Source: Methylomagnum ishizawai
Lineage (GTDB): Bacteria > Pseudomonadota > Gammaproteobacteria > Methylococcales > Methylococcaceae
Direction: 5' to 3'
DNA: 64,000 bases
Assembly (NCBI RefSeq): GCF_019670005.1
Contig: NZ_AP019783.1
Span: 310,001-374,000 of the forward strand
Part shown: positions 17,104 through 46,685 of the stretch, in pieces
Position numbering within the stretch: position 1 is the first letter of the stretch
Layout of the letters: each line of letters opens with the position of its first letter
Program-made: the position numbers and the translations under genes
The notes under the pieces: generated by a model
Seen by the model: only the letters and a program-made list of their open reading frames with translations
Database searches by the model: none
What the model was told of the DNA's origin: nothing

Positions 17104-18201
17104 CTACTTCACGACACGGAGTTTCGGGGGCTGGTCCAGCACCGCCGCCGCGTCCGCCAGGTCTTCCTGGGCGAGGAAGGCATAGGTGCGGTAGGTGGTG
17201 GTCACGTCGGCATGGCGCAGGATCCGCGCTATCCGGTGGATGTCCACGCCGTTCTGGGCCAAGATGCTGCCGCAGGTACGGCGGAGGTCGTGAACGGTGG
17301 TGTGGGGCATTTCCAGGCCCGCGTGGCGGATGGCCCGTTGCAGGTCTTGATAGGGGTCCGTGTGCGGGAATACCCGGTTGTCGGGCTGGCGCTCGGCTTT
17401 CCGGTTGGCTAGGGCGAGGCGGGCCGTCCGGTTGAGGGGGACCGCGCCGACCTTGCGGTTTTTCTGGTCGGCGCGGCCCAGGTGCAGGACGCCGTTGTCA
17501 AGGTCCACCCGGTCCCAGGTGAGGCGCAGGGCTTCTTCCCGGCGCAATCCGGCGTTGAGGCAAAGCCGGATGTAGTCGGGCAGGTAGGCTTTGCGCGGGT
17601 GGGCGCGGCCATAGGCTTCCGCCGCCGCGATGAGTTGGCCGATTTCTTCGGGGGTGAGCCAGCGGTCGCGGGGCGCGTTCGGGGCGGGCTTGCGGGAGCG
17701 CCAGGGGTTGGGGATGGCCCATTCCAGGCGCTCGATAGCCCAGTTGGTAACGCTGGACATGAAGGCGATTTGGTTGCGGATGGTGGCGTCCGCAGTGCCC
17801 GCCGCCCGGCGTTGTTGGATGAAGGCATCGACCGCCGCGCCGTTGATTTCGGTCAGCGGGGTGGTTTTGAAGGCGTCGAACAGCCCGGCGCGGAGCATCC
17901 CACCCTGGTTGCGCCGGGTGCCGGGGGTGTGTTTGGAGCCGGGGCCGTCGAGGTAGCGGTTTATCATTTCGGCGAAGGTGTGGGTTGTGGTGGGGAGTTC
18001 CTGCGGGGTTGGGAGCGGGGTTTGCGCGATGAATCCGGCCCGGATTCGCTTGGCTTCGTGGCCTCGGGGGTCGTCGGCCACTTTAATCCCAGTCGAGCGG
18101 CGAGCAGTTCGGCTTCCGATTTTCCAGGCTGCCCACCAGTAGGGGGAGTCGGGCCGCTGGTAGATGCCGTCTTGGTCGCGGGGTTTGTTTCTTTTTTGCA
18201 T
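17104..18201 (-). CDS. int: Tyrosine-type phage integrase
   Basis: 365 residues from ATG 18201 with a GGAGG site; the open frame extends 89 codons further but runs antisense-like through the HTH gene. An arm-binding N-terminus (GIYQRPDSPYWWAAW), a core-binding SAM-like domain (about 75-165) and a catalytic domain follow, with R220, K250, H304-x-x-R307, H330 and the nucleophile Y340. It catalyses site-specific integration and, with an excisionase, excision. It is the last gene of the leftward operon and abuts the likely attL. Confidence 0.95.
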   Translation of the reverse strand: MQKRNKPRDQDGIYQRPDSPYWWAAWKIGSRTARRSTGIKVADDPRGHEAKRIRAGFIAQTPLPTPQELPTTTHTFAEMINRYLDGPGSKHTPGTRRNQGGMLRAGLFDAFKTTPLTEINGAAVDAFIQQRRAAGTADATIRNQIAFMSSVTNWAIERLEWAIPNPWRSRKPAPNAPRDRWLTPEEIGQLIAAAEAYGRAHPRKAYLPDYIRLCLNAGLRREEALRLTWDRVDLDNGVLHLGRADQKNRKVGAVPLNRTARLALANRKAERQPDNRVFPHTDPYQDLQRAIRHAGLEMPHTTVHDLRRTCGSILAQNGVDIHRIARILRHADVTTTYRTYAFLAQEDLADAAAVLDQPPKLRVVK

Positions 18202-18377
18202 GTCGTTTCCTCCATGGAGGACTCGCCAGCTTGCCGCCTCCGAAGATAGTCTGCCAGCGCTTGTTCGTCCACCCGGACACAGCCCTTCGTGACCCGGATC
18301 ACGGGGATGTGCCGCCGGACGGTGGACGTGCTGATGCTGAGGCGCTCGGCCGCCTGGGCGATGGTCAGGAGGGTCAT
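17964..18377 (-). CDS. Excisionase-like HTH protein
   Basis: 137 residues. Residues 1-55 form a MerR/Xis-type winged helix (MTLLTIAQAAERLSISTSTVRRHI, then a wing and DYLRRR), the fold of phage excisionases and DNA-binding domain 17 proteins. The remaining 80 residues are low-complexity and overlap the integrase coding sequence in another frame for 238 bases. That overlap is real on paper because no stop occurs, but the tail may have little function. Position immediately upstream of int supports an excisionase role. Confidence 0.65.
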   Translation of the reverse strand: MTLLTIAQAAERLSISTSTVRRHIPVIRVTKGCVRVDEQALADYLRRRQAGESSMEETTCKKETNPATKTASTSGPTPPTGGQPGKSEAELLAARLGLKWPTTPEATKPSESGPDSSRKPRSQPRRNSPPQPTPSPK

Positions 18378-18592
18378 GCCACGTCTCCCAGCAATCCAAA
18401 TTCCACCCGCTCGACGCTGACCTTCCCCGGCAGGACAAACCCGGATGGATAGACCGTGGGGCGCGCATGCCGCCGGATCAGGAGGGTCCGGCACTGGCCA
18501 CACTCGAAATGATCGGTGGGCAGGTGGCGGGGCATGGCCGAAAGCGGGGTTTGGGCACCGCAGGTGCAAGTCATGAAGGGTTCGGAGTTCAT
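18374..18592 (-). CDS. Small zinc-ribbon protein
   Basis: 72 residues starting at the ATG that overlaps the stop of the DUF488-ASCH gene (ATGA) and ending in an overlap with the HTH gene. Two CxxC-type pairs (CTCGAQ and CGQC) with intervening histidines predict a small zinc ribbon. No family recognised. The tight overlaps on both sides support it being a genuine gene of the leftward operon. Confidence 0.6.
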   Translation of the reverse strand: MNSEPFMTCTCGAQTPLSAMPRHLPTDHFECGQCRTLLIRRHARPTVYPSGFVLPGKVSVERVEFGLLGDVA

Positions 18593-24293: not shown

Positions 24294-25361
24294 TCAGGCG
24301 GCGACCGCGATGCGGTGCCACTCCGAGGTGTTCAGGGTGAGGAGCCGCCCGCCGATCTGCTGGAGCTCGACCGCCCGGTCGTAGCCCACGGCGTCGTCGT
24401 TGGCGAGGTGGGTGATGGCGTTGAGCATTCCCCAGCGGCTGTAGTCGCCGTCGCGGATGAGGCGTTCGAGGATGGATTCGCCCTCGCCCTGGGTGATGGG
24501 CACCGCCTTCTGCAAGACCTCGACCGCCTTGACGGGCTTTTCGATGCGCGGCCCTTCGGTGGCCTCGCGCATCCGGGCCAGCAGGTTCCCGAAGCTGGCG
24601 GCGTTCATGGAATCGCGCACCGCGTCGCGCATCTTGAGGGCCAGGGCGCGGTCGTCGGCGGCGAGGGTGTCGTCCTGGAAGATCGAGGCGTCCTCCCCGT
24701 TGGATTCGACGCGCCGACCGACGTGGTTCCGGCGGATGCCCCCGGTCTCGGCGATCATCCCGTTGGTGCAGACCAGCCGGTAGACCAGGGGCCGGACCTG
24801 GAACGCGCCCAGCCCCACCTCGCTGTTGCTGATGACGATCCCGGCTTGCACCACGTCGCCCTTCTGGACTTCGCCCTCGATGCGGGGGAACAGGGCTTGG
24901 ATGTAGAGGCGCAGGTCGGTGATCTCGCTGGACACGATCTCCACCGGCTGGGCGGCGTCCAGCAGTTCGGGCAGCACCGCCTCGGCGATCTGTTCGTTGT
25001 CGATCCGGCGGTAGCGGTCGGACAGGAAGGCGCGGGCGCGGTTGTCCAGGGTGCGGACCATCCGCCGGGCCGGTTCCCGTTGGAACCAGTGGTTCAGGTT
25101 GTCGGCCAGGAGGCCGGGGGCTTCGGCCAGCATCCGGTCGTAGTAGCGGCTGGGGATGCCGGCGTGCTGGCCGATCTGCTGGTGGGCCAGGGGGAGCGGG
25201 GCCGCGTAGCCCACGCCCTCGATGTGCAGGGCCACGGCGGGTTTGTCCTCCCCGACGACCTCGATCCGCATGGCGCGGGTGTCGGCCACGAGGTCTTTCT
25301 TGGCGCTGGCCCGGCGGGCGAGTTCCTGGGCCAGTTCGACGATGGATTTTCCTGGTTTCAT
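24294..25361 (-). CDS. DUF932 phage/plasmid protein
   Basis: 355 residues. The family pattern is seen in the central RRIDNEQIAEAVLPEL, the IVISNSEVGLGAFQVRPLVYRLVCTNGM segment and the C-terminal WGMLNAITHLAND. DUF932 proteins are frequent in phages and conjugative elements, some close to DNA processing or anti-restriction genes; no activity is established. It is the second gene of the leftward early operon, 85 bases after the giant repeat protein. Confidence 0.8.
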   Translation of the reverse strand: MKPGKSIVELAQELARRASAKKDLVADTRAMRIEVVGEDKPAVALHIEGVGYAAPLPLAHQQIGQHAGIPSRYYDRMLAEAPGLLADNLNHWFQREPARRMVRTLDNRARAFLSDRYRRIDNEQIAEAVLPELLDAAQPVEIVSSEITDLRLYIQALFPRIEGEVQKGDVVQAGIVISNSEVGLGAFQVRPLVYRLVCTNGMIAETGGIRRNHVGRRVESNGEDASIFQDDTLAADDRALALKMRDAVRDSMNAASFGNLLARMREATEGPRIEKPVKAVEVLQKAVPITQGEGESILERLIRDGDYSRWGMLNAITHLANDDAVGYDRAVELQQIGGRLLTLNTSEWHRIAVAA

Positions 25362-25446
25362 GGTGCGCTCCGGTGGAAGGGTTGTGGTGTGGCGCGGTGG
25401 CGCCCCTCGCTGCCCCCTCGCGGGGAAGGGGCAACGGGGCGGGCCG

Positions 25447-27972
25447 CTAGCCCGGGAGGCCGGCCTTGTACCCGGCCACCCAGCGGGTGTTGGTGGTTTC
25501 GTTGGCCCCGGTGAACCCGGCCACGTAGCCGGAACGGAGGGAGCGGCCCGCCATCTCGGCCTCGCGGGAGGCGCGGCCTTCGGCCTTGTCGGCGGTGCCC
25601 AGTCCGTAGCCCTGGAACCAGTCGGCGTCGGCCTTGCCGCCCTTCCGCGCGGCGGCGAAACCGCGCTTGTAGGGGGCGGAGTCCTCGATGGCCTTGGCGG
25701 CGGCGGGGGTGGGCGCTTGGCGGGGCGTGGCGGGCGTTTCTGCCGCCTTGGCTTGGGTGGCGGCCTTGGGGGCCGGTTGTGGGGCCGGGCGGGAAACCGG
25801 GGCGGCTTCCAGCTTTCCGATGCGGGCCTCGGCGGCGGCGAGCCGGTCGGCCAGCTTGACCGCTTGCTCGACCAGGAACTGGTGGGCGGCCAGCAGTTCA
25901 TCGAAGTTCAGGGGGGCGGGCTGGGCGGGTTCGGCCTGTACCGGCATGGCGGCCAGCCGTTCTTGCAACTTGGCCTCGGTGGCCTGCCTGGACTGGGCGG
26001 CGTTCCAGCCTTCCATGTAGCCCTCGTTGAACACCGGCATGGATTCGATCAAGTCGGGCTTCTCGTAGCCTTCCATCGCGTCGGAATAGCCCTGGCTGAA
26101 AGCCGTGGTTTGCGCCGGGGTGGGGGCCGGGGCTTCCTCAACCACCGGGGCCGGTTCGGCGGTCTTGGCTTCCTCGATGGCTTCCCAGGCATCGCCCTCG
26201 CAGGAAGGGGCGGCCTCGGGGGCGGGGGCCAAGCCGGTGTCGGCCTGTTCCTCAAGGCCGCGCAGGGAACGGGCGGCGTCGATCACGTCGCCCACCGTGG
26301 CCGCTTCCGGCAATTGGCCGGCCAGGGCGGCGAACTCGCCCTCGGTCATGTCGGAACCGTTGTAGACCGCCACCAGGGCCGGGGTTATTTCTTTCACTAC
26401 CGCAGCGACAGCCTTTCGCGCCGCATCCAGGGCACTCGACAACCGGCTTAGAACGTCAAAATCCTCGTTGGAATACCCGCACACGCCGCCCCGGTCCCAC
26501 CATGCCTGTGAAGCGGCCAGGGCCGGGTTTTCCGGGTCGATTTCCCGGAGTTGGGTTTCTAGAAAGGCGATATGGCCTTGATTGGCGGTTTCGGGTGCCG
26601 GGCGGGGCGGTTCGCGCATCGCCCGCGCCGCCTCGCGCTGCGCCCGGCACACCGCGCCGTGGTTCCAGCCGGAACGGTAGTCGGCCACGTCATGGGTGGG
26701 TTCGCGGCCCGCCTCGCCATCGGCGAAGCCCTCATGCCAGCGGGCCTTGCTGTGGACCGGGGCCGGGTCGGCCTTCACTTCCCCGGCCATGATGGCCAGG
26801 GTTTCTTCACGCTCCTGAGCCTCGATGTTTTCCTCGATTTCCTCGTCAGTGGGGTCGCCGCCCAGCGCTTCGTCCAGCATGACCGCGGAAGCGCCCGCCC
26901 CAACCGTTTCCTCCTGCGCGGCGGGTTCCAGCATCGGGTCGCCGCGCTTGATGATGTCCAGCGCCTTGCGGATACCGGCCATATCGTCATCGGCCCCGTG
27001 GGCGGCTTGGGCCGGGGCTTGCGGGGCCGGTTCCGGGCGCTGGGGGTGCTGCGCGTCCCAAATGGCCCGCAGGGTGTTGGTGTAGTAGAGCTTGTTGTAC
27101 ATGCCCTGGCTGAAATAGCCGCGGGCGAACGACTTGAATTCCTCAAAGCTCTCGATCTCGTCGATATGCGCGGCCAGCCGGTTGGCGATCAACTGCTCGG
27201 CCTGGGCAAAGGCCGCTTCCGGCGCGGTTTCCTGTTCCTGGGCCAGGGCTTGGGTCTGTTCGGCCTTGACGCGCTCCATGAGCGTGGCATGGGCCGCGAT
27301 GGTGGAAGCCATGGACGGGTGGGGGGTGGCGGTGTTGGGGGTCATGGGCTGCGCTCCTGTGTCGTGGTCGGGTTCGGTGGGGATGGCGGCGGGGCCGGGG
27401 GCCGGGGCCGCGGCCTGCATTTCCAATCGCCGGGCGCGGGCTTCCAAGGCCGCCGCCGCGTCCAGGTCGGCGAGGTAGGCGCGGTAATCGTCGGCATAGC
27501 CCGCGCCGCACCGCAGTTCCGCCGCCTGCCTACGCAGTTCCGCTCCGGGTCCGTCCTGGAGGGGGGCGGCCTGGACCTGTCCGGCGCGGGCGTGGGCGCG
27601 GGCTTCGGCCCTGGCCGCATAGGCCGCTTCCACCTGTTCGGGCGTCAGCGGCGCGGGGCCGGGCTTGAGGCCGATGCGGCGCACGTCGGCGTGGGTCAGT
27701 TTGTCGGCGGGGTCGATGCAGCCGTAGGGGCGGCTGGGGGCCGGAACGGCTTCCGGGGCTTGGGCTTCGAGGGCGGCGGCTTCGGCCTGGGCTTGTATGG
27801 CCCCGGCCAACTGCCGGGCGAACCGCTTATAGGCGGCGTTCCAAGCCCGCTTGGAATCGCCGAACCGGCGGGGGTGGTTTTGGCGGTCCAGCCAGGGCTG
27901 GCCGTCGATGAGGACCACGTAGGGCTTCGCGCCGTCGCCGGCTTCGCGGCGGGAAACGGTGATGTTGCTCAT
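25447..27972 (-). CDS. Giant repeat-containing early phage protein
   Basis: 841 residues, first gene under the repressed leftward promoter. Residues 1-60 look like a small DNA- or protein-binding domain (SKRAWNAAYKRFARQL). Long Ala/Pro/Glu-rich linkers alternate with short Gly-aromatic motifs of the type GYxxG/GWNxG at about 411, 428, 626, 648, 770-790, 813 and 833 (examples DYRSGWNHGA, FNEGYMEGWNAA, SLRSGYVAGF, RWVAGYKAG). A helical stretch AAHIDEIESFEEFKSFARGYFSQGMYNKLYY sits near 270-300 in two pieces. I do not recognise the family. Its size and early position suggest an interaction hub or anti-host protein; that is inference. Confidence 0.7.
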   Translation of the reverse strand: MSNITVSRREAGDGAKPYVVLIDGQPWLDRQNHPRRFGDSKRAWNAAYKRFARQLAGAIQAQAEAAALEAQAPEAVPAPSRPYGCIDPADKLTHADVRRIGLKPGPAPLTPEQVEAAYAARAEARAHARAGQVQAAPLQDGPGAELRRQAAELRCGAGYADDYRAYLADLDAAAALEARARRLEMQAAAPAPGPAAIPTEPDHDTGAQPMTPNTATPHPSMASTIAAHATLMERVKAEQTQALAQEQETAPEAAFAQAEQLIANRLAAHIDEIESFEEFKSFARGYFSQGMYNKLYYTNTLRAIWDAQHPQRPEPAPQAPAQAAHGADDDMAGIRKALDIIKRGDPMLEPAAQEETVGAGASAVMLDEALGGDPTDEEIEENIEAQEREETLAIMAGEVKADPAPVHSKARWHEGFADGEAGREPTHDVADYRSGWNHGAVCRAQREAARAMREPPRPAPETANQGHIAFLETQLREIDPENPALAASQAWWDRGGVCGYSNEDFDVLSRLSSALDAARKAVAAVVKEITPALVAVYNGSDMTEGEFAALAGQLPEAATVGDVIDAARSLRGLEEQADTGLAPAPEAAPSCEGDAWEAIEEAKTAEPAPVVEEAPAPTPAQTTAFSQGYSDAMEGYEKPDLIESMPVFNEGYMEGWNAAQSRQATEAKLQERLAAMPVQAEPAQPAPLNFDELLAAHQFLVEQAVKLADRLAAAEARIGKLEAAPVSRPAPQPAPKAATQAKAAETPATPRQAPTPAAAKAIEDSAPYKRGFAAARKGGKADADWFQGYGLGTADKAEGRASREAEMAGRSLRSGYVAGFTGANETTNTRWVAGYKAGLPG

Positions 27973-28036
27973 GGTGCGCTCCTGGGGGTGTTTGTTCTTG
28001 GGGGGGTGCCCCGGTTGGGTGGGGGCTTGGGGCTTA

Positions 28037-28065
28037 ATTTACCAAAATGGTAAAATAATGGTCAA
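28037..28065 (-). promoter_or_regulatory. Leftward early promoter (pL-like)
   Basis: On the leftward strand a -35 TTGACC (28,065-28,060) and a -10 GTAAAT (28,042-28,037) are separated by 17 bases. The -10 and spacer lie within operator 1 and the -35 touches operator 2, so a bound repressor would block RNA polymerase. It would drive the 27,972-17,104 operon. Confidence 0.65.
28038..28054. promoter_or_regulatory. Operator 1, leftward
   Basis: Perfect palindrome TTTACCA-AAA-TGGTAAA (7-3-7). Its half-sites are identical to those of operator 5 beside the Cro-like gene 3.9 kb away, so both are likely bound by the same repressor. Confidence 0.8.
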
Positions 28066-28080
28066 TACCAAATTGGTAAA
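28064..28080. promoter_or_regulatory. Operator 2, leftward
   Basis: TACCA-AAT-TGGTA core with one side extended to TGGTAAA. It is centred 26 bp from operator 1, about 2.5 helical turns, and overlaps the edge of the -35 element. Confidence 0.75.
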
Positions 28081-28114
28081 TTTTTTCGGGGTCGCTAAAA
28101 TTTTCATCGCCCAC

Positions 28115-28140
28115 AAAAAAGCCCGGACTGGCCGGGCTTT
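28115..28140 (-). terminator. Leftward terminator A upstream of the early promoter
   Basis: Nine-bp stem AAAGCCCGG/CCGGGCTTT with a 5-base loop, ending in a run of six T on the leftward strand. It would stop leftward transcripts from the immunity region before they enter the early operon. Confidence 0.8.
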
Positions 28141-28151
28141 GGGATGAGCAT

Positions 28152-28175
28152 AAAAAAGCCCGCTCGGGGCGGGCT
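28152..28175 (-). terminator. Leftward terminator B, tandem with A
   Basis: Seven-bp stem AGCCCGC/GCGGGCT with a 5-base loop and six T at its leftward end. It lies 12 bases from terminator A, giving a double block in the same direction. Confidence 0.8.
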
Positions 28176-28188
28176 GGTGGATGACGGA

Positions 28189-28311
28189 ATGGTTGTTACC
28201 TTTTATCGTGCGGGGCTGCGCAAGGACAAGTACGGGCACACGTTGGGCTACGGGCACTCACGGCCCAATGGCCGGGTACGGCTGGACCTTCCAACCAATC
28301 GGCTCCCATAG
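28189..28311 (+). CDS. Possible 40-aa phage ORF
   Basis: A short frame starting MVVTFYRAGLRKDKYGHTL and ending in PTNRLP. Its composition (YRAGLRKDKYG, GYGHSRPNGRVRL) reads like protein rather than chance, but no ribosome site is clear and the length gives little statistical support. It fills part of the 426-base non-coding stretch between the early promoter and the methylase; the rest, 28,312-28,398, shows nothing I can name. Confidence 0.3.
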   Translation: MVVTFYRAGLRKDKYGHTLGYGHSRPNGRVRLDLPTNRLP

Positions 28312-28398
28312 GGTTGCTTAGGGAACAGGGATCAACTATTTTCGCTGTTTTCGCTTACCCCGGCGACTTGCGCCATAACGCGAGACCCAACCACGAAA

Positions 28399-29922
28399 AT
28401 GAGTGATCGCATCATGACAAGGCAGACGATTGAACGGAAAATCGCCCGCCTCCGGGCCGGAAAACAGCCCAGAGTTCTCGACTTGTTCGCCGGTTGCGGC
28501 GGACTTTCCCTCGGCTTCGAGGCCGCTGGATTTGAACTCGCCGCCGCCGTCGAATTCGACCCCGACGCGGCCCGCTCCCACGGTTTGAACTTTCACCCCG
28601 GCAAGGAAGCCCACAGCCAAGCCCGCGATATCCTTACCACCCACCCGGAAGACTTAGCCCGTGAACTGGGCCTGGGTCCAGTCGCCGAGGCTATCGATGT
28701 GATTGTCGGCGGTCCCCCCTGCCAAGCATTCGCCCGCGTCGGTCGCCCCAAACTGCGGGAAATCGACGCCCACCCCCAGGCTTTCAAGCATGACCCACGG
28801 GCACGCCTCTACCTGGAATACCTCAGCTATGTGGAAGCCTTCCAGCCCCTGGTCGTGCTAGTGGAAAACGTCCCGGACGTGCTAAACCATGGCGGACAAA
28901 ATATTGCCGAGGAAATCTGCGAAGTCTTGGAACAGAAAGGCTATCTCTGCCGCTACACCCTGCTGAACGCCGCGTTTTATGGAGTGCCCCAGACGCGGCA
29001 AAGAATGTTCTTGATCGCGTACCGGGGCGAAATCGCCGACCGGGTGGTTTTCCCGGAATCTACCCACTGGGTTGAACTGCCACCGGGCTACGAAGGCTCA
29101 CGCGCCGTAGCGCTGAAACTGCTGAACGATGGAAATATCTCCGGCGATGCCAACGATTACACAGACCCCCCGGAAGCCACTCCCGAACTGATTCCCGCCG
29201 TCACCGCTGAACAGGCGCTCGGTGACTTGCCACCGATCTATGCCCGCGACCTGCTCAAATCCGGCGAATTGCGACGGGGGGCACGCCGGTTCGATAAGCC
29301 GATGCCCTACGGTGCCCATACCAAACTATCCGCCTATGCCAGACTGATGCGGACTTGGCCAGGATTCCAAGCGCTGCCCGAAGGTCTCAAAGACCATGTC
29401 ATCCGCTACCTGCCACGCGACTATGAACTGTTCGCCCGCTTGAATCCCGGCGACCAATACCCGCAAGCCTGGAAACACGCCCACGACATGCTGGCCGAAA
29501 GGGTTCAGGAACTGCGCGGTCGGGGAATCTACATCTTTGAGGGAACCCCGGAATACGAACGCCTGAAAGAGCAAATCATCCCGCCCTATGATGTCAATAA
29601 ATTCCCGAACAAGTGGCGGAAAATGGAAGCCGACCAACCCGCCCGCACGCTCATGGCCCACCTGGGGAAGGATGGCTATAGCCACATCCACTACGACAGC
29701 GCCCAGGCGCGGACCATCTCGGTGCGGGAGGCCGCGAGGCTGCAATCCTTTCCCGATGGCTTCGTATTCAATGGCACCATGAACCCGGCCTTCCGGCAAA
29801 TTGGGAATGCGGTGCCGCCGCTTATGGCCAAGGCGCTCGCGACAACAATCATCAAACAAATCAGAGAGGGAGTAAGGGCAGGTGAAACGGAAACTTGTCC
29901 TAAAGCGGCTGTCTGCGTCTGA
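28399..29922 (+). CDS. C5 cytosine DNA methyltransferase of a type II R-M system
   Basis: 507 residues from ATG 28399 (ATG 28414 is an alternative). Motifs in order: I DLFAGCGGLSLGFEAAGF (from D28), IV GGPPCQA with catalytic C108, VI VENVPD, VIII QTRQRMFLIA, a long target-recognition region (about 210-430), IX SVREAARLQSFPDGF and X QIGNAVPP. It transfers methyl from SAM to carbon 5 of cytosine in a recognition site that cannot be read from the sequence. It overlaps the next gene by 41 bases; that gene looks like the cognate endonuclease. GC content is visibly lower than in the flanking phage genes, a sign of separate acquisition. Confidence 0.93.
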   Translation: MSDRIMTRQTIERKIARLRAGKQPRVLDLFAGCGGLSLGFEAAGFELAAAVEFDPDAARSHGLNFHPGKEAHSQARDILTTHPEDLARELGLGPVAEAIDVIVGGPPCQAFARVGRPKLREIDAHPQAFKHDPRARLYLEYLSYVEAFQPLVVLVENVPDVLNHGGQNIAEEICEVLEQKGYLCRYTLLNAAFYGVPQTRQRMFLIAYRGEIADRVVFPESTHWVELPPGYEGSRAVALKLLNDGNISGDANDYTDPPEATPELIPAVTAEQALGDLPPIYARDLLKSGELRRGARRFDKPMPYGAHTKLSAYARLMRTWPGFQALPEGLKDHVIRYLPRDYELFARLNPGDQYPQAWKHAHDMLAERVQELRGRGIYIFEGTPEYERLKEQIIPPYDVNKFPNKWRKMEADQPARTLMAHLGKDGYSHIHYDSAQARTISVREAARLQSFPDGFVFNGTMNPAFRQIGNAVPPLMAKALATTIIKQIREGVRAGETETCPKAAVCV

Positions 29923-31021
29923 CTTGACGCTATTTGAATACCACTACAGGAATACCAGCGGAGCCAAACAGAAAGCGATCAACATGGACGCGGCGGTGTT
30001 CGTCAACGTCTTGTTTCCAACCCTACCGGGAAGGATCGACGCCATCCGGGATCGCGTCAAAATTACGCTGGAGGTCTATGGTCCCGGCGAGGCGGGGATT
30101 CACAGCATCACCCGGAAAATCCTCAAGCAGCAAAAGAACTGGCGCTTGAACGGCGAATTGATCGTCAATCCGCCAGAGGAGCCGGGCCGCTATGACCCTT
30201 TGCAAAAGGGTGATTATGCAATCCTGGATTTCGTTGGCGACCCGGAACCCCACACGGCCAGGATGTATTTGGTAGCGCGGGCCTTGCCACAGGATGCCGC
30301 GCTCCATGCCGCCCTTGATGCGAAATACGGAGCCGCCTTTTCTCCCAGGAAAGGGATGGAACCCATCGACCTGGAGGATTTGGCCCAACTCCTAGGCGGA
30401 TTAAGCCTGCCGGAAGGCCATCCCGTCTTGGACTTTATCGATTCCGACACGCTTGAGGACGCGGCCCAAGGCGGCGTGGAAGCGCTGCGGAAACTACGCA
30501 AACGGCGGAAAGCCCGTGGCGTGAGCCGGGAGGAATTTGGAAGGGCGAAACGGGCAGCCGAGCAAGTGGGCCGATTGGGGGAAGAAATACTCAATGGCTG
30601 GCTGGAAACGGAGCAACATGCAGGCAGGATACAGGGCTACCGTTGGGAATCGGATGCCAATGCCATCGCGCCCTATGACTTCGTGCTGGTGGAGGACGGC
30701 GCTGATATCCGCAGGATCGATGCGAAATCCACTACCGGCGATTTCAAAAATCCTATCCATGTTTCGCTGGCGGAACTTTTTGAGATGGCCGAGGGTGGGT
30801 TGCCTTACGACCTATACCGGCTTTATTCGGTTAGCGAGAACTCGGCGCGATTGCGGATCGCAAAAGGCCTACGGGAAACCGCAGCCCGGATATTGGAGCC
30901 TTTCAGGAGGTTGCCTAGCGGAGTAACAGTGGATGGGGTGTCCATAGCCCCGGAAACCTTGGGCTTTGGCGAGGAAATCATCATCAGCTTTTCAGCCAAT
31001 GACGAAGGGATCGATGAATAG
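29882..31021 (+). CDS. Putative type II restriction endonuclease (DUF3883-like)
   Basis: 379 residues from GTG 29882, preceded by a GAGGGAG site. The N-terminal part (about 1-160) has no motif I recognise. The C-terminal part (about 225-345) is DUF3883-like: GRLGEEILNGWLETE, then YDFVLV with Asp and RRIDAKSTTGDF giving D-x-K, the PD-(D/E)XK nuclease signature. Its start lies within the methylase 3' end, the usual coupling that delays endonuclease after methylase. The pairing makes restriction the best explanation; specificity is unknown. Low GC matches the methylase and not the phage. Confidence 0.75.
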   Translation: MKRKLVLKRLSASDLTLFEYHYRNTSGAKQKAINMDAAVFVNVLFPTLPGRIDAIRDRVKITLEVYGPGEAGIHSITRKILKQQKNWRLNGELIVNPPEEPGRYDPLQKGDYAILDFVGDPEPHTARMYLVARALPQDAALHAALDAKYGAAFSPRKGMEPIDLEDLAQLLGGLSLPEGHPVLDFIDSDTLEDAAQGGVEALRKLRKRRKARGVSREEFGRAKRAAEQVGRLGEEILNGWLETEQHAGRIQGYRWESDANAIAPYDFVLVEDGADIRRIDAKSTTGDFKNPIHVSLAELFEMAEGGLPYDLYRLYSVSENSARLRIAKGLRETAARILEPFRRLPSGVTVDGVSIAPETLGFGEEIIISFSANDEGIDE

Positions 31022-31309
31022 CAAAACTTCCGCTGACCTGACCGAACGGGCCGACTCTGGATAGCAAACTGGCCTGAACGACTGACCCCGACTTGACCGG
31101 GAAGCTCTCCGCCTCATCTTTTTCCAAGCCCAATGAGGGTAAGCCAGAGGGCGAGAATCCCCCGCAAACGAAAAAGGCCCCCCTTTTGAAAGGAAGAAGC
31201 CTTTGGAGAATAGGGTGTCACGGATTGGCTGATAATAGCGTTTTTATCGATTTGTCAATGTAAATACTTCACAGAAAAAAGCGTGACAGGGTTGGCACAA
31301 TATACAGGA
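31022..31309. other. AT-rich intergenic stretch between R-M cassette and repressor
   Basis: 288 bases between two convergent genes. An imperfect hairpin at about 31,168-31,204 (AAAGGC ... GCCTTT) could terminate either side. I see no open frame with coding character and no operator of the TACC-N5-GGTA type. Confidence 0.5.
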
Positions 31310-31894
31310 TTATGCCACTACTCCCGTCATACGCCGCTTCTTGTCGGAAGTTGGCTGTTCAATTACTTCTTTGGTGTTTTTCTGTTCAATTCCATCAACA
31401 AACCGCACCACACTGTCAACCTTTCCGTCCTCCATCTTCATGGTGGCAGTAATAATGTTGCGCATTTTCCCCCTCTTGCCCAGTGGCAAGATTTCTTCCG
31501 GTAAAGAGGATAGGAATTCGTCCAACCGCTGAGCAAGGTCTTCTTCACTAGAGCCTAATTGCTTCTGCTGCGTAGATGGTGAGGTTGTTTTCTTTTTTCT
31601 GCCGCGTTTACTGCCCCTCTTGTCAGCATCCCGATCAAGGATATCGGCTGCGGCCTGTTCGTCCCATATTTCTGGGTGCGGGATATCCAACCAACCATCC
31701 CCCACCTCGAAGGCGTCGGTTATTTGTTTCGCGATGCCATGGCCGATGTTGCGCGTCGGTTTTTGCCCAATGATATGAGCCACCTGGGCATCCGACTTCC
31801 GTAATTTTTCAGCAAAGGCACGCTTACTGCCGCACCTGTGGGCGGCCAGATGTCGGGCGTTCAGCCATCTTATCTTCGTGATATCCATCTTCAT
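31310..31894 (-). CDS. Phage repressor (CI-like HTH, no peptidase domain)
   Basis: 194 residues from ATG 31894, chosen because AAGGAAG lies eight bases upstream; ATG 31888 and a TTG at 31930 are alternatives. Residues about 10-65 are a lambda-repressor-type helix-turn-helix (RHLAAHRCGSKRAFAEKLRKSDAQVAHIIGQ in two parts). A basic linker (DKRGSKRGRKKK) and an acidic helical C-terminus follow; there is no LexA/S24 Ser-Lys protease motif. Operators 3 and 4 lie just upstream of its start, so it probably regulates itself. It sits between the leftward and rightward operator sets, as expected for the prophage master repressor. Confidence 0.8.
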   Translation of the reverse strand: MKMDITKIRWLNARHLAAHRCGSKRAFAEKLRKSDAQVAHIIGQKPTRNIGHGIAKQITDAFEVGDGWLDIPHPEIWDEQAAADILDRDADKRGSKRGRKKKTTSPSTQQKQLGSSEEDLAQRLDEFLSSLPEEILPLGKRGKMRNIITATMKMEDGKVDSVVRFVDGIEQKNTKEVIEQPTSDKKRRMTGVVA

Positions 31895-31907
31895 AATTTG
31901 CGCTTCC

Positions 31908-31922
31908 TTACCTTTAAGGTAA
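31908..31922. promoter_or_regulatory. Operator 3, at the repressor start
   Basis: Perfect palindrome TTACCTT-T-AAGGTAA, 14 bases upstream of the repressor ATG and sharing the TACC-N5-GGTA core of the other sites. Binding here would block repressor transcription or initiation. Confidence 0.7.
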
Positions 31923-31939
31923 ATGAGCAAATTGGTAAA
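31923..31939. promoter_or_regulatory. Operator 4, half-site
   Basis: One intact half TGGTAAA paired with a degenerate half (4 of 7 matches), directly abutting operator 3. Likely a weak site filled by cooperative binding. Confidence 0.5.
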
Positions 31940-31947
31940 AAAATCCC

Positions 31948-31976
31948 TTGCGTGTCTTTTACCATTTTGGTAAAAA
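31948..31976 (+). promoter_or_regulatory. Rightward promoter (pR-like)
   Basis: TTGCGT and TAAAAA with a 17-base spacer; operator 5 covers the spacer and -10. A start of transcription near 31,983-31,985 would coincide with the Cro-like ATG at 31,985. Confidence 0.5.
31958..31974. promoter_or_regulatory. Operator 5, rightward
   Basis: Perfect palindrome TTTACCA-TTT-TGGTAAA, differing from operator 1 only in the three central bases, and ending 10 bases before the Cro-like start codon. Confidence 0.8.
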
Positions 31977-35747: not shown

Positions 35748-38264
35748 ATGGCCGCGAAAAAAACCTACCAGGAATTCCTCCGGGGCAAGATCAGGCTGGC
35801 CGAGTTCGGCGGCTTCGACGTGGCCCCGTCGGAAATCAATCCCATCCTGAAACCCCACCAGCGCGACATCGTGCGGTGGGCGGTGAAAGGCGGACAGCGG
35901 GCCGTGTTCGCCGCGTTCGGCCTGGGCAAGTCGGTCATCCAGATCGAAGTCCTGCGCCTCGTCAAGGCCAAGGTCGGCGGCACCGTGCTGGTGGTCCTGC
36001 CCCTGGGCGTCCGCCAGGAGTTCCGCCGCGATGGCCAGATGCTCGGGGTGGAATTCAAGTTCATCCGCCGCAACGAGGAAATCTGGCCGGACGCGGACAG
36101 CGGGTTCTACCTGACCAACTACGAGAGCATCCGGGACGGGAAGCTCGATCCGAACCGGTTCACCGCCGTCAGCCTGGACGAGGCGTCCGTGCTGCGTAGC
36201 TTCGGCTCCAAGACCTACCAGGAGTTCCTGCCCCTGTTCGCCCGCGTCCGCTACAAGTTCGTGGCGACGGCCACCCCCAGCCCCAACCGCTACAAGGAAC
36301 TGATCCACTACGCCGGGTTCCTGGGGATCATGGACACCGGGCAGGCGCTCACGAGGTTCTTCAAAAGGGATTCCACCCAGGCGAACAACCTCACGCTCTA
36401 TCCGCACAAGGAACGGGAATTCTGGCTCTGGCTCAACTCCTGGGCCGTGTTCCTGCAACGCCCCTCCGACCTGGGCTATTCCGACGAAGGCTATTCCCTA
36501 CCGCCGCTCAAGGTGGTCTACCACGAGGTGCCCGCCGGCGACCTGGTGGGCCACGAGCGCGACGGCCAGGGCTTGCTGTTCCCCGACGCGGCCATGGGCC
36601 TCAAGGAAGCCGCCGGCGAAAAGCGGGATTCCGTCGAGGCCCGGATCGCCCGGATGGTGGACATCCTCAAGGCCGACCCCGGCTCCCACTACATCCTCTG
36701 GCACCACCTGGAAGCCGAGCGCCGCGCCATCAAGGCGGCATGGCCGGAAGCCACCGAGGTCTACGGCACGCTGGACCTGGACGAGCGGGAGCGGCGGGTG
36801 GTGGCGTTCTCGGAGGGCCGCGTCAAGTACCTGGCCACCAAGGAGGAAATCTCCGGTTCCGGCTGCAATTTCCAACGGCATTGCCACAAGGCGATATTCA
36901 CCAGCATCGGGTACCGGTTCAACGACTTCATCCAGGCCATCCACCGGATATACCGGTTCCTCCAGACGGAAGCATGTGAAATCCACATCATCCACACTGA
37001 GGCGGAACGGGAAATCCTGCGGTCGTTGCAGGAGAAGTGGACCCAGCACAACGAATTGGCGGCGAATATGAGCGACATCATCCAAGAACACGGATTGAAC
37101 ACCCTATCCATCGCGGACACCCTGGCCCGGACCATCGGCGTCGAGCGGGTGGAGGTTTCCGGCAAGCACGGGCGTTTCCGGGTGGCGAACAACGATTGCG
37201 TGGACGAGGCCCGGCGCGTGGAGGAAAACTCCGTGGGCCTGATCGTCACCAGCATCCCCTTCGCCAACCACTACGAATACACCCCGACCTACGAGGATTT
37301 CGGGCACACCGAGGACAACGCCCATTTCTGGGAGCAAATGGATTTCCTCACGCCGGAGCTGCTGCGCATCCTGCAACCGGGGCGGCTGTACTGCTGCCAT
37401 GTGAAGGACCGCATCCTGTTCGGCAACGTCACCGGCCAGGGCGTGCCCACGGTGTCGCCGTTCCATGCCGAGGCGATATTCCATGGCATCCGGCACGGGT
37501 TCCAATACCTGGGCATGATCACCGTCGTCACCGACGTGGTGCGCGAGAACAACCAGACCTACCGCCTGGGCTGGTCGGAGCAGTGCAAGGACGGCACCAA
37601 GATGGGCGTGGGTTCCCCCGAGTACATCCTGCTGTTCCGCAAGCCCCAGACCGACCGCTCCAAAGGCTACGCCGATGTGCCGGTGCAGAAATCCAAAGAC
37701 GCCTACACCCGCGCCCGCTGGCAGGTGGACGCCCATGCGCTGTGGCGGTCCCGTGGCGACCGGCCTTTGACCGCCGATGATCTGGCGGGCATGGGGCCGG
37801 ACAGGCTGGCGAAGGCCTTCACCCGGTTCAGCCTGGAACACGTCTACGACTACGAGTTCCACGTCCGCATCGGCGAGGAACTCGAAGCCCGCGGCGCGTT
37901 GCCGTCCAGCTTCATGAGCCTCGCCCCCGGTTCCGGCCATCCCGCCGTCTGGCACGACATCAACCGGATGCGGACCCTCAACGGCAACCAGTCGGCGAAG
38001 GGCTTGCAGAACCATGTCTGTCCCCTGCAATTCGACATCGTGGAGCGCCTAATCGAGCGCTACAGCAACCGGGACGAACGGGTCTACGACCCGTTCGGCG
38101 GGCTGATGACCGTGCCCTACTGCGCCGTGAAGATGGGCAGGCGGGGCGGGGCGTCGGAACTCAACCCGGCCTATTTCCTGGACGGCCTGCAATACCTGCA
38201 AGCGGCGGAACGGGACCACGCCATGCCCACGCTATTCGACCTGCTGGAAGCGGAGGCCGCATGA
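35748..38264 (+). CDS. Helicase-DNA methyltransferase fusion
   Basis: 838 residues from ATG 35748; the frame stays open 1.9 kb further upstream, but that is antiphase to the primase gene and not real. The N-terminal half is an SF2 helicase: FGLGKS at about 57-62, SLDEAS as motif II near 143, TATPSPN as motif III, and a C-terminal helicase lobe up to about 440. The C-terminal half is an N6/N4 amino-methyltransferase with catalytic TSIPF near 500 and the SAM site VYDPFGGLMTVPYCAVKMGR near 780, in the beta-class order. It may methylate phage DNA while translocating, protecting against host restriction. The catalytic tetrapeptide is unusual (S-I-P-F instead of DPPY/SPPY). Confidence 0.85.
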   Translation: MAAKKTYQEFLRGKIRLAEFGGFDVAPSEINPILKPHQRDIVRWAVKGGQRAVFAAFGLGKSVIQIEVLRLVKAKVGGTVLVVLPLGVRQEFRRDGQMLGVEFKFIRRNEEIWPDADSGFYLTNYESIRDGKLDPNRFTAVSLDEASVLRSFGSKTYQEFLPLFARVRYKFVATATPSPNRYKELIHYAGFLGIMDTGQALTRFFKRDSTQANNLTLYPHKEREFWLWLNSWAVFLQRPSDLGYSDEGYSLPPLKVVYHEVPAGDLVGHERDGQGLLFPDAAMGLKEAAGEKRDSVEARIARMVDILKADPGSHYILWHHLEAERRAIKAAWPEATEVYGTLDLDERERRVVAFSEGRVKYLATKEEISGSGCNFQRHCHKAIFTSIGYRFNDFIQAIHRIYRFLQTEACEIHIIHTEAEREILRSLQEKWTQHNELAANMSDIIQEHGLNTLSIADTLARTIGVERVEVSGKHGRFRVANNDCVDEARRVEENSVGLIVTSIPFANHYEYTPTYEDFGHTEDNAHFWEQMDFLTPELLRILQPGRLYCCHVKDRILFGNVTGQGVPTVSPFHAEAIFHGIRHGFQYLGMITVVTDVVRENNQTYRLGWSEQCKDGTKMGVGSPEYILLFRKPQTDRSKGYADVPVQKSKDAYTRARWQVDAHALWRSRGDRPLTADDLAGMGPDRLAKAFTRFSLEHVYDYEFHVRIGEELEARGALPSSFMSLAPGSGHPAVWHDINRMRTLNGNQSAKGLQNHVCPLQFDIVERLIERYSNRDERVYDPFGGLMTVPYCAVKMGRRGGASELNPAYFLDGLQYLQAAERDHAMPTLFDLLEAEAA

Positions 38265-38455: not shown

Positions 38456-38883
38456 GCCGCGCCCTTTTCGTTCTGCAACCCGCGCCCCATCCAGCCCGCG
38501 CCCGCGCCCTGGAAGCCGTCCGCACCGCCCCCGAGGGCTACGTGGTCGAGGTCAGGCAGAAGACCCGGAGCCTGGAACAGAACGCCCTCATGTGGTCGAT
38601 GCTGGCCGAAATCTCCCAGCGGGTGTGTTGGCATGGCGAATGGCTGACGGCGGAAAACTGGAAGGACGTGTTCACCGCCGCCCTCAAGCGCGAGAAGGTC
38701 GTGCCCGGCATCGGCGGCGGGTTCGTGGTGCTGGGCCAGCACACCAGCCGCATGACCCGGCGGGAGATGGGCGACCTGATCGAACTCATGCACGCCTTCG
38801 CCGCCGAGCAAGGCGTCGCGTTCCCCTGGGAAACACCGCCCAGGCCCATGCCGGACGCCCGCGACGGGGAGGTGCCACGGTGA
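38452..38883 (+). CDS. ninB: NinB-like recombination mediator
   Basis: 143 residues. The NinB/Orf core is clear: VRQKTRSLEQNALMWSMLAEIS, then WLTAENWKDVFTAALK, VVPGIGGGFVVLGQHTSRM and REMGDLIELMHAF. Orf proteins bind single-stranded DNA and help RecA or annealases replace RecFOR functions. It complements the Sak4-like ATPase and nuclease of the leftward operon. The GTG of the next gene overlaps its stop. Confidence 0.88.
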   Translation: MSRALFVLQPAPHPARARALEAVRTAPEGYVVEVRQKTRSLEQNALMWSMLAEISQRVCWHGEWLTAENWKDVFTAALKREKVVPGIGGGFVVLGQHTSRMTRREMGDLIELMHAFAAEQGVAFPWETPPRPMPDARDGEVPR

Positions 38884-40199
38884 AGTTCCTTTCCGTGTGT
38901 TCCGGCATCGAGGCCGCGTCGGCCGCTTGGCGTCCGCTGGGCTGGGAGGCGCTGGCCTATGCCGAGATCGAACCCTTCCCGTGCGCCGTGCTGGCCCACC
39001 ACTACCCCGATGTCCCCAACCGGGGCGACATGGCCCGGTTCCAGGAGTGGCCCGATGCCCGACCAGATGTCCTTGTGGGGGGAACCCCCTGCCAATCCTT
39101 CTCCGTCGCCGGCCTCCGAGCGGGCCTGGACGATCCGCGTGGTCAACTCATGCTGGCCTACGGTGCGGTTGCTCGCCAATACCGCCCCCGCTGGCTGGTT
39201 TGGGAGAACGTCCCCGGCGTCCTGTCGAGCCACGGGGGACGGGATTTTGGAACCTTCCTCGGGATGTTGGCGGAACTCGGGTATGGGTTCGCCTACCGGG
39301 TTCTTGACGCTCAATACTTCGGAGTTCCCCAGCGCCGCCGCCGTGTGTTCGTTGTCGGCCGTCTTGGAGACTGGCGACGTGCCGCGGCGGTACTTTTTGA
39401 GCGCCACGGCCTGCAAGGGCATCCTCCGCCGCGCCGCGAACCGGGGGAAGGCGTTGCCGGAACCCTTGCAAGCCGCCCTACGGGCGGTGGCGGACTCGGA
39501 ACCGACTTCGACCTAGGCGGTGGCTTGGTATCTGGGACGCTTACCGCGAGCTATGGCAATTCAACGGGTCGCGACATGGCCGAAATGCCGGGCGCGTTGG
39601 TAGCCCGGCCATTGACCGCACACCAACGGCGCATGGACGGCACGGTAGAAACCTTCGTCGCCCATTCCCTCCGCGCCGAAGGTTTTGACGCCAGCGAGGA
39701 CGGCACGGGACGGGGCACGCCCCTGGTGCCGATGGCCTACCGCACCTCGCCGAATTGCGGAGCCTGGGACACCGGGGACCGCGTGGACGCGCTGACCACG
39801 GGCACCGATCCGGCTTCCCATGTGCTGGCCTTCCAGGAACGGGGGCGGAAGGGCGGCCGTTCCCTGGAAATCATGGGCGACATCCATCCGGCCTTGCTCG
39901 CGCCGGACGGCGGCGGCCGAGGCGGCGAACGGAACATCCTGGCCGGGACCGGCGTGCGCCGCCTCACGCCCCGCGAATGCGAGCGCCTGCAAGGCTTCCC
40001 CGACGACTACACCCGCGTCCCCTACCGGGGCAAACCAGCCGCCGACGGCCCGCGCTACAAGGCGCTGGGGAACGCCATGGCCGTGCCCGTCATGCGCTGG
40101 ATCGGCGAACGCATCCAGGCGGTGGAGGCGATGGGACGCCCGGCCGACGCACCACGGCCCATGGCCCGGCGCAAGGGCCACGCAACCTCGAAACCTTGA
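38880..40199 (+). CDS. Phage C5 cytosine methyltransferase (orphan)
   Basis: 439 residues from GTG 38880. Motif I SVCSGIEAASAAWRPLGW, IV GGTPCQSFSVAG with C71, VI ENVPG, VIII QRRRRVFVVG, IX LTPRECERLQGFPDDYT and X ALGNAMAVPV are all present. There is no adjacent nuclease gene, so it is likely an orphan that protects phage DNA. It differs from the R-M methylase in motifs I and X and is of the short phage kind. Two C5 enzymes plus the helicase-methylase give this phage three DNA methyltransferases. Confidence 0.92.
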   Translation: MKFLSVCSGIEAASAAWRPLGWEALAYAEIEPFPCAVLAHHYPDVPNRGDMARFQEWPDARPDVLVGGTPCQSFSVAGLRAGLDDPRGQLMLAYGAVARQYRPRWLVWENVPGVLSSHGGRDFGTFLGMLAELGYGFAYRVLDAQYFGVPQRRRRVFVVGRLGDWRRAAAVLFERHGLQGHPPPRREPGEGVAGTLASRPTGGGGLGTDFDLGGGLVSGTLTASYGNSTGRDMAEMPGALVARPLTAHQRRMDGTVETFVAHSLRAEGFDASEDGTGRGTPLVPMAYRTSPNCGAWDTGDRVDALTTGTDPASHVLAFQERGRKGGRSLEIMGDIHPALLAPDGGGRGGERNILAGTGVRRLTPRECERLQGFPDDYTRVPYRGKPAADGPRYKALGNAMAVPVMRWIGERIQAVEAMGRPADAPRPMARRKGHATSKP

Positions 40200-40782: not shown

Positions 40783-41219
40783 GGGCGTCCCATCCCGGCG
40801 GGAACGCCCTGCGGGCCGGGCACGCGCCCCGGCCCAAACCCCGCGACCGCGAACACCGGGAACAGGCCGCGCTGTTCGGGTGGGTGGAACTCGCCAAGGC
40901 CCGCCATCCCGGCCTGGGCCTGCTGTTCGCCATCCCCAACGGCGGCGACCGCCACCCCGCCGTGGCCGCGAAGCTCGGGGCCGAAGGCGTCCGGGCCGGC
41001 GTGCCCGACCTGTGCCTCCCGGTCCCGCGCGGCGGGTTCCATGGCCTGTGGATCGAACTCAAGGCACCCCAGGGGCCGGGGGCGCGGCCCGGTGCCTTGG
41101 AACCCGGACAACTCGACTGGCTCGACGCCCTCAACGCCCATGGCTACAAGGCCGTGGCCCGCTGGGGCTGGGAGGCCGCGCGGAACACCCTCATCGACTA
41201 CCTGGAAGGCAAACCATGA
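40779..41219 (+). CDS. VRR-NUC domain nuclease
   Basis: 146 residues from GTG 40779 overlapping the endolysin stop. The VRR-NUC fold is recognised by EQAALFGWVELAKARHPGLGLLFAIPNGG, GVPDLCLP with the metal-binding Asp and GLWIELKAP giving E-x-K. Small phage VRR-NUC proteins are structure-specific nucleases, often Holliday-junction or endonuclease partners of replication forks. ATGA overlap with the ParB-like gene. Confidence 0.85.
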   Translation: MRASHPGGNALRAGHAPRPKPRDREHREQAALFGWVELAKARHPGLGLLFAIPNGGDRHPAVAAKLGAEGVRAGVPDLCLPVPRGGFHGLWIELKAPQGPGARPGALEPGQLDWLDALNAHGYKAVARWGWEAARNTLIDYLEGKP

Positions 41220-41923
41220 CCCAGACCAAGACCCAAGCCAAGCCCACGGCCACCCTGCGCCCCATCGCCGAACTGGCCCCCCACGGGGATAACCCCCGCA
41301 TCCACCCGGAGGAACAGATCGCCAAGCTGGCCGCGATGATCGACCGGGTGGGGTTCGTCGGCGTCGTCGCCGTCCGGGATGGCGTCATCGCCAAGGGCCA
41401 CGGCACCCTCGCGGCCTGCCGGCGCTTGCTGGCCGAGGGCAAGGATATCCACCCGGCCCCCGGCAGGGAGCGCGGCGCCCCGCCGTTCCCGAGGGGCCAG
41501 CTGCCGGTGCAGGACTGCACCGGCTGGACCGACGCCGAGTTCCGGGCCTTCGTGGCCGCCGACAACCAGCTCGGCCTGCTGTCGGGCTGGGACGATGACC
41601 TGTTGCGGCTCAACCTGGACGGCCTGGAACTGGACGGGTTCGATTTGGGGGACATCGGCTTTTCCGGCGACGAGCTGGAACGGCTGCTGGCGCTCCCCGA
41701 TAGGGCCACGCCACCCGAACCGGGCTTCCAGCCCGCCCTGGACCCCGGCACCGACCACCGCCAAGTCACCGACGCCGAGGTGGACCGCGCCCAGGCCCGC
41801 GCCGATGGCCGGTTCTCCGGCGGGGACGCCCGCCGGAAGGCCGAACTGCTCTGCCCGAACTGCGCCGAATCCTTCCACATGAACGCCGACGACCTCGCCC
41901 TGATCCTGAGGGACGCCCAATGA
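41216..41923 (+). CDS. ParB-like nuclease-fold protein
   Basis: 235 residues. Residues about 15-85 hold a ParB/Srx fold (PIAELAPHGDNPRIHPEEQIAKLAAMI, then KGHGTLAACRRLLAEG with the G-H-x-R type loop). The C-terminal third has a zinc pair CPNCAESFHM. Such proteins accompany phage DNA methyltransferases and often sit before terminase. ATGA links on both sides. Activity not known; a DNA-modification accessory role is inferred. Confidence 0.75.
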   Translation: MTQTKTQAKPTATLRPIAELAPHGDNPRIHPEEQIAKLAAMIDRVGFVGVVAVRDGVIAKGHGTLAACRRLLAEGKDIHPAPGRERGAPPFPRGQLPVQDCTGWTDAEFRAFVAADNQLGLLSGWDDDLLRLNLDGLELDGFDLGDIGFSGDELERLLALPDRATPPEPGFQPALDPGTDHRQVTDAEVDRAQARADGRFSGGDARRKAELLCPNCAESFHMNADDLALILRDAQ

Positions 41924-46676: not shown

Positions 46677-46685
46677 GAGGACCCC

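Follow-up and report, generated by a model that had tools for sequence, protein, structure and literature searches.

The DNA analysed here, called the window, is a 64 kb stretch (64,000 nucleotides; positions 310,001 to 374,000 of contig NZ_AP019783.1, C1 below) of the 5.2 Mb genome of Methylomagnum ishizawai. It contains a prophage in which the genes of a C5-cytosine DNA methyltransferase and of a predicted restriction endonuclease, together a candidate restriction–modification (R-M) pair, lie between the leftward operators (OL) and the repressor gene. The features of this locus are as follows.

28399–29922, plus strand: C5-cytosine DNA methyltransferase, modification subunit, 507 amino acids.
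29882–31021, plus strand: predicted DUF3883/NOV_C restriction endonuclease, 379 amino acids, GTG start with GGGAGTAAGGGCAG just 5′.
29882–30376, plus strand: B3-like DNA-recognition domain in the predicted fold, nuclease residues 1–165.
30533–30991, plus strand: PD-(D/E)XK-type catalytic domain, nuclease residues 218–370, with E234, D266, D280 and K282.
31310–31930, minus strand: repressor of the prophage, convergent with the two R-M genes; it matches phrog_12107 (transcriptional repressor) with E = 4e-8.
28039–28053, no strand: OL operator 1, TTACCAAAATGGTAA, a perfect TTACCNNNNNGGTAA site.
28065–28079, no strand: OL operator 2, one mismatch to TTACCNNNNNGGTAA.
31908–31973, no strand: operator cluster on the rightward (OR) side; 31908–31922 and 31959–31973 are perfect, 31924–31938 has two mismatches.
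28112–28177, minus strand: tandem leftward hairpins (direct repeat D1), OL-side edge of the proposed cargo slot.
28073–28101, plus strand: weak promoter-like site TTGGTA-17-TAAAAT overlapping OL operator 2.

The methyltransferase was assigned using Pfam, TIGR00675 and an alignment of its relatives. The DNA_methylase profile matched with E = 1.8e-57 in the Pfam search, the score for TIGR00675 (dcm) was 171.2 bits (cut-off 100.65), and the catalytic and cofactor motifs GGPPCQ, ENV and GNAVPP are present; judged by these matches, the open reading frame (ORF) at 28399–29922 is an intact C5-cytosine methyltransferase. PADLOC returned a Type II methyltransferase model, as well as the DISARM and Druantia methyltransferase models. 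The methyltransferase and nuclease ORFs overlap by 41 bp. The nuclease scored above the cut-off for Pfam NOV_C (E = 1.8e-5, 25.2 bits against 22.1), a profile that matched 12 of 12 aligned members of its family, and its relatives in plasmid records are labelled DUF3883, which we take to be one family with NOV_C. In PADLOC it matched TmtA (best E = 1.9e-9, C-terminal part only) and PDC-S36. The active-site residues E234, D266, D280 and K282 are invariant in all 12 proteins of the alignment, and by this measure the active site is intact; the original prediction would have been refuted by a D-x-K site mutated in all relatives, and this refutation fails, as D280 and K282 are retained throughout. 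A search of the PDB with the single nuclease sequence gave no match, and a search with the 12-row profile gave only haemoglobins and FIS at E of at least 0.19.

The nuclease was modelled in AlphaFold2 using nine aligned relatives, and the best of five models was used (mean predicted local distance difference test score, pLDDT, 79.7; predicted template-modelling score 0.66); residues 259–263, close to the active site, have pLDDT values below 50. The top Foldseek matches were BfiI (E = 2.0e-5) and the BfiI recognition domain (E = 1.3e-4). For residues 1–186, VIA-align gave Z scores of 11.5 to the recognition (C-terminal) domain of BfiI (3zi5), 10.5 to EcoRII-N (3hqf), 10.2 to the N-domain of Helicobacter pylori LlaJI.R1 and 7.3 to the B3 domain of UbaLAI (5o63). 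The alignments with Z of 10–11.5 span 119–148 residues, and the next B3 entries after the restriction enzymes are plant factors with Z of about 7. The N-terminus is thus predicted to carry the B3 recognition fold of the BfiI, EcoRII and LlaJI.R1 class, a domain that the modelled enzyme would have in common with BfiI, EcoRII and UbaLAI. EcoRII combines a B3 domain with a PD-(D/E)XK nuclease, as the window nuclease would; BfiI cleaves with a phospholipase D-type domain. Unlike the enzymes of this class, the window nuclease has a DUF3883/NOV_C catalytic domain; no similarity of its sequence to a solved structure was detected. For residues 218–370 the Z scores were 6.1–7.5, with RecU, DpnI and Hjc (6.1–7.2) and chains of the SPARDA complex as the matches. 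Several of these proteins are PD-(D/E)XK nucleases, but according to the note accompanying VIA-align this level may mean only a common arrangement. The earlier description of the nuclease as weakly similar to known restriction enzymes therefore holds for its sequence, which has no relative in the PDB, but not for its predicted fold, which is of the known B3 class. A literature search on DUF3883/NOV_C and restriction, with most subscription papers outside its reach, turned up no study of a B3–DUF3883 enzyme.

Relatives were sought by a peptide-pattern scan of genomes, in which 55 stretches matched and eight encode a nuclease relative (L002–L009; 41–72% identity). In 8/8 of these loci a relative of the R-M methyltransferase adjoins the nuclease (58–77% identity; in L002 the contig ends inside the methyltransferase gene). 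The genes are in the tandem overlapping order of the window in three loci (L002–L004) and divergent in five (L005–L009). The Type II R-M arrangement, an endonuclease gene tightly linked to a methyltransferase gene, was thus found in the window and in all eight genome loci. In the plasmid collection four records match the nuclease, and all four match the methyltransferase alongside by coordinates; one nuclease match (H4) covers only 24% of the query with E = 9e-4, and three of the four records were opened. The nuclease occurs in two of 301 genomes of the order, the own genome included, the second carrier being, by contig coordinates, the same place as L004, and in none of the 100 other genomes in a further set of 101. 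This patchy occurrence was counted in favour of an R-M cassette carried as cargo. The relatives found for the pair lie outside phage collections; the surroundings of L003 and L004 were judged by eye to be housekeeping-like genes. Trees of nine pairs differ only in the grouping of the window, with L004 for the methyltransferase (97/95) and with L002 and L003 for the nuclease (90/95). Recombination between the two genes, suspected from uneven identities, was dropped, the tree conflict being too weak.

The same pairing bears on whether the nuclease could instead be a modification-dependent, Type IV-like enzyme that accompanies a methyltransferase of other function. DUF3883 domains do occur away from methyltransferases, for example on the lactococcal plasmid pLd11, whose gene list, in the part of the source available, contains none (PMC6098607). 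Against this, a methyltransferase of the same family stands beside the nuclease in 8/8 genome loci despite the inverted order, and a nuclease that cut DNA marked by its own partner would be lethal to the cell; we regard such an enzyme as very unlikely here. DUF3883 forms a presumed Type II restriction endonuclease group in a survey of archaeal R-M systems (PMC10609329), and has been called a novel restriction endonuclease domain, fused there to an SNF2 helicase (PMC3710099). The available parts of these two papers give neither a recognition domain nor a prophage setting for it.

The element surrounding the pair is, from its gene content, a prophage. Its other landmark genes are listed below.

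17104–18468, minus strand: integrase.
25447–27972, minus strand: first gene of the leftward operon, beyond OL, 841 amino acids, function unassigned.
48802–50169: head protease.
51253–52290: major head protein.
57366–59603: tail sheath.

Replication genes (O-like and primase/helicase) are also present, and a contractile tail is inferred from the tail sheath gene. By eye, long phage-like frames reach about 8.4 kb beyond the end of the window, where an Rhs-like frame and further frames begin, which would make the element roughly 55 kb long. A second, distant C5 methyltransferase (phrog_116; 38592–40199, plus strand) has 39% identity over 101 residues to the R-M methyltransferase in its best segment, and the protein encoded near it (40880–41923, plus strand) matches best phrog_498, a phage DNA methyltransferase family, and also ParB-like families. 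Elsewhere on the same contig, a 129-bp piece (G000:C1:4358444–4358584; L118:5445–5585) near an apparent transposase gene is 87% identical to the middle of the R-M methyltransferase gene; judging by this piece, a related gene seems to have been present in the host at an earlier time.

The placement of the pair between OL and the repressor, as claimed in the original prediction, was confirmed by locating the ORFs, both operator clusters, the repressor and an 18-nt exact inverted repeat that pairs 28038–28055 with 31957–31974 and joins the two clusters. Allowing at most one mismatch, TTACCNNNNNGGTAA has four sites in 64 kb, all within these clusters; allowing two, 12 sites were found against 9.0 expected, a number reached in 19 of 100 shuffles and not significant. 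This slot, from the repressor to the leftward operator region, is also that of rexAB in lambda and bstA in BTP1, and the cI–n interval has been described as a hotspot of mosaic diversity (PMC8585504). In those accounts, as far as available, bstA lies downstream of the repressor and presumably on its promoter (PMC8585504), and a RexAB-type pair of Pseudomonas putida sits downstream of a CI-like repressor (PMC12894663). The window pair differs in that it is encoded on the plus strand and the repressor on the minus strand, so that the cassette lies outside the repressor operon and shares no transcript with it. The earlier comparison with the place of rexAB is therefore correct for position but not for the operon. 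The pair would also act by restriction, whereas rexAB and bstA act by abortive infection. A literature search for R-M genes in an immunity region, judged on titles and abstract openings, turned up no matching case. The position suggests defence of the lysogen; the wider term 'defence island' is too much for two genes.

Base composition was calculated for the genes and the window. The methyltransferase and nuclease genes have guanine-plus-cytosine (GC) contents of 59.6 and 56.6% (third-position GC 0.68 and 0.65), compared with 65.8% for the window and a third-position GC of 0.84–0.92 in four sampled phage genes; two other sampled frames gave 0.74 (49–1542, outside the phage) and 0.51 (44927–48451, perhaps no gene). 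The lower GC that was said to separate the pair from the phage was thus observed, but the repressor is lower still (49.8%, third position 0.56), and the cassette is therefore not distinguished by its GC. Low GC is a mark of the whole immunity region.

Because the pair is convergent with the repressor, its expression in the lysogen is not to be assumed by analogy with rexAB. Promoter-like sites were examined between 27900 and 32100. The best-scoring site upstream of the methyltransferase, at 28073–28101, matches nine of 12 consensus positions, a level at which five sites were found against 2.5 expected (standard deviation 1.8), near chance. A relaxed scan gave a weaker site (eight of 12) at 28181–28209, clear of the operators. 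Since the best site overlaps OL operator 2 (28065–28079), expression of the pair may be operator-controlled. It is conceivable that a rightward promoter overlapping this operator drives the two genes and that they are repressed in the lysogen, the methyltransferase marking phage DNA on entry or induction while the nuclease attacks host or competitor DNA. The opposed direction of the R-M and repressor genes agrees with such a scheme, as does the overlap, but the near-chance score, the second site that touches no operator and the distance of about 300 nt from the operator 2 site to the start codon all speak against it, and we consider it unlikely.

To compare the slot with that of a related element, a neighbouring gene of the prophage was used, which encodes a helicase joined to an N6/N4 methyltransferase (phrog_16; 35748–38264, plus strand) and is common in viral contigs, with at least 600 matches. 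Of 61 genomes searched, just two gave a match: the own genome and G001, which belongs to the same genus and in which the gene is 97% identical. Apart from a 242-bp piece, a 49-bp piece and the 66-bp hairpins, little DNA is common to the window and the 60 kb around the G001 gene. The hairpins at 28112–28177, of which a terminator scan calls one of two (with a scan total not above chance), are 88% identical over 66 bp in G001 (E = 2e-15). There they border operator-like repeats of different sequence, TACCTACTTGGGTA, found on both sides and noted without a chance control. Between the hairpins and a repressor-like gene, G001 has two other genes, both leftward like the repressor-like gene. These genes (L024:12439–13976) encode a 274-residue protein without a Pfam match and a HipA_2-like protein of 238 residues (HipA_2 E = 4.7e-5 and 23.2 bits, short of the 27-bit cut-off; PADLOC PDC-M66A, E = 3.4e-5), a candidate defence pair with weak support. 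Other genes at the same spot, as the original prediction proposed to look for in related prophages, were thus found in the single sibling region identified. The presence of different genes in two related prophage-like regions supports the reading as a cargo slot. Among viral loci, 80 of at least 600 matches to the helicase–methyltransferase gene were examined, and none of the 80 matches the repressor, the 841-residue protein, the phrog_1362 gene (24294–25364) or the nuclease (tblastn, E = 1e-4). No relative of the repressor was found by a pattern scan of viral contigs or in 60 other genomes, and at E = 0.01 neither the R-M pair nor the repressor had a match in two viral contigs that carry a gene related to the phrog_1362 gene.

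The partners of the methyltransferase were compared in its relatives. Its matches include 21 plasmid records, nine of which were opened (L010–L018). A gene for an AAA protein and a DUF2357/PDDEXK_7 nuclease gene lie near the methyltransferase relative in three of these plasmids (L010, L012 and L014) and in three genome loci (L005, L007 and L008; in L007 the DUF2357 match is limited to residues 219–549). Mza-type genes, either a MzaB relative or a DUF4420 protein matching MzaD, occur in L011, L015, L016 and L018, and a DUF3883 nuclease in L013, L014 and L015; in L015 the DUF4420 protein matching MzaD adjoins the DUF3883 gene. None of the tested partner modules was found in L017. Eleven DUF3883 loci were examined besides that of the window, and in four of them (L005, L007, L008 and L014) the one methyltransferase present is flanked by the AAA/DUF2357 pair as well. 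The AAA protein has weak Pfam AAA matches below the cut-off and matches PADLOC PDC-M26A; from its partner, and by likeness to LlaJI and PcaRCI, it may be McrB-like. In these loci, relatives of the window methyltransferase sit with the partners of LlaJI/PcaRCI-type systems, which consist of a C5 methyltransferase, an McrB-like AAA protein and an McrC-like/DUF2357 nuclease, and the B3 fold predicted for the window nuclease is that of the LlaJI.R1 N-domain. In the window cassette, by contrast, no AAA or DUF2357 gene was found (25–35 kb, tblastn at 1e-4 with the L010 proteins). The recognition sites are GACGC for LlaJI (PMC1459862) and CCNGG for M.PcaI (PMC8989522).

A Vsr gene accompanies the methyltransferase in all 17 relatives opened (L002–L018; tblastn with the annotated Vsr of L010, which is itself one of the 17). 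No Vsr was found with this query in the window between 25 and 35 kb, and a search for a remnant in 28000–28450 and in 30900–31400, the latter spanning the gap at 31022–31309 between the nuclease and repressor genes, with five Vsr proteins gave only scattered matches (best E = 0.046) that were taken as chance. The sole Vsr of the own genome is at C1:395285, about 21 kb past the window and beside a different C5 methyltransferase (C1:395285–396888); it might serve the prophage methyltransferase in trans. Among the forms compared, the prophage copy is the most reduced, with one mark, one cutter and no Vsr. Tentatively, the methyltransferase family may be a shared hub whose single mark guards against several exchangeable cutters (DUF3883, AAA/DUF2357 and Mza-type), sometimes side by side at one locus, and of which the prophage would hold a stripped-down form. 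We put this forward as a possibility rather than as the expected outcome.

Taken as a whole, the pair is probably a minimal Type II R-M system, an interchangeable cargo of a contractile-tailed prophage. The C5 methyltransferase would mark a single site, both in the host's DNA and in that of the prophage. The nuclease would read the same site in its unmarked form through the N-terminal B3 domain and cut through the C-terminal DUF3883 PD-(D/E)XK domain, which would destroy the DNA of infecting phages but leave the lysogen unharmed. The slot between the repressor and the hairpins on the OL side would have received the cassette from a pool of chromosomal or plasmid genes. We infer the shared recognition site, the cleavage, the expression in the lysogen, the benefit to the host and the direction of acquisition.

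The following observations weigh against this interpretation. The R-M pair is outside the repressor transcript and its best promoter-like site is on OL operator 2, so the lysogen might not express it. The predicted fold is the sole basis for the B3 domain, which Pfam and PDB sequence searches of the nuclease did not detect, and the other four nuclease models are weaker (mean pLDDT 62.5–68.4). The cargo slot is known from two cases, and the G001 repressor, without a Pfam match, was named by position alone. Similar hairpins also give weak 19–29 nt matches at a second place in the G001 stretch and in further viral loci; the hairpins are therefore weak markers of common descent and identify the slot only in combination with the operators. 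The phage collection contains no match to the nuclease (E = 0.01) or the methyltransferase (1e-30), and two pattern scans of viral contigs, which detect close relatives only and may omit records near the own genome, gave no relative, so these collections lend no support to retention of the pair in phages.

The cassette could also serve the prophage as an addiction module: on prophage loss the methyltransferase would be diluted and leftover nuclease would cut, defence being a side effect. Post-segregational killing upon loss of an R-M system has been described (PMC8989522, available part), and the overlap of the genes with the methyltransferase first is in keeping with it; against it, the prophage, integrated and with an integrase, is probably stable already. 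We think it unlikely that addiction is the primary role, although the data do not separate addiction from defence and both can hold at the same time.

The case is real and well placed, and mostly ordinary in kind, a further instance of an arrangement already known. To rexAB and bstA in the known prophage defence slot it adds a Type II R-M pair, in what is probably the prophage of a methanotroph (order Methylococcales), and it shows two related regions of one genus with different operators, similar hairpins and different slot genes. A DUF3883 restriction enzyme is also given a predicted recognition fold. That one methyltransferase family serves several cutting modules is indicated and directly testable. 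If the family is such a hub, a prophage supplying the shared mark could license the entry of any such system into its host, or could lift the host's addiction to any such system.

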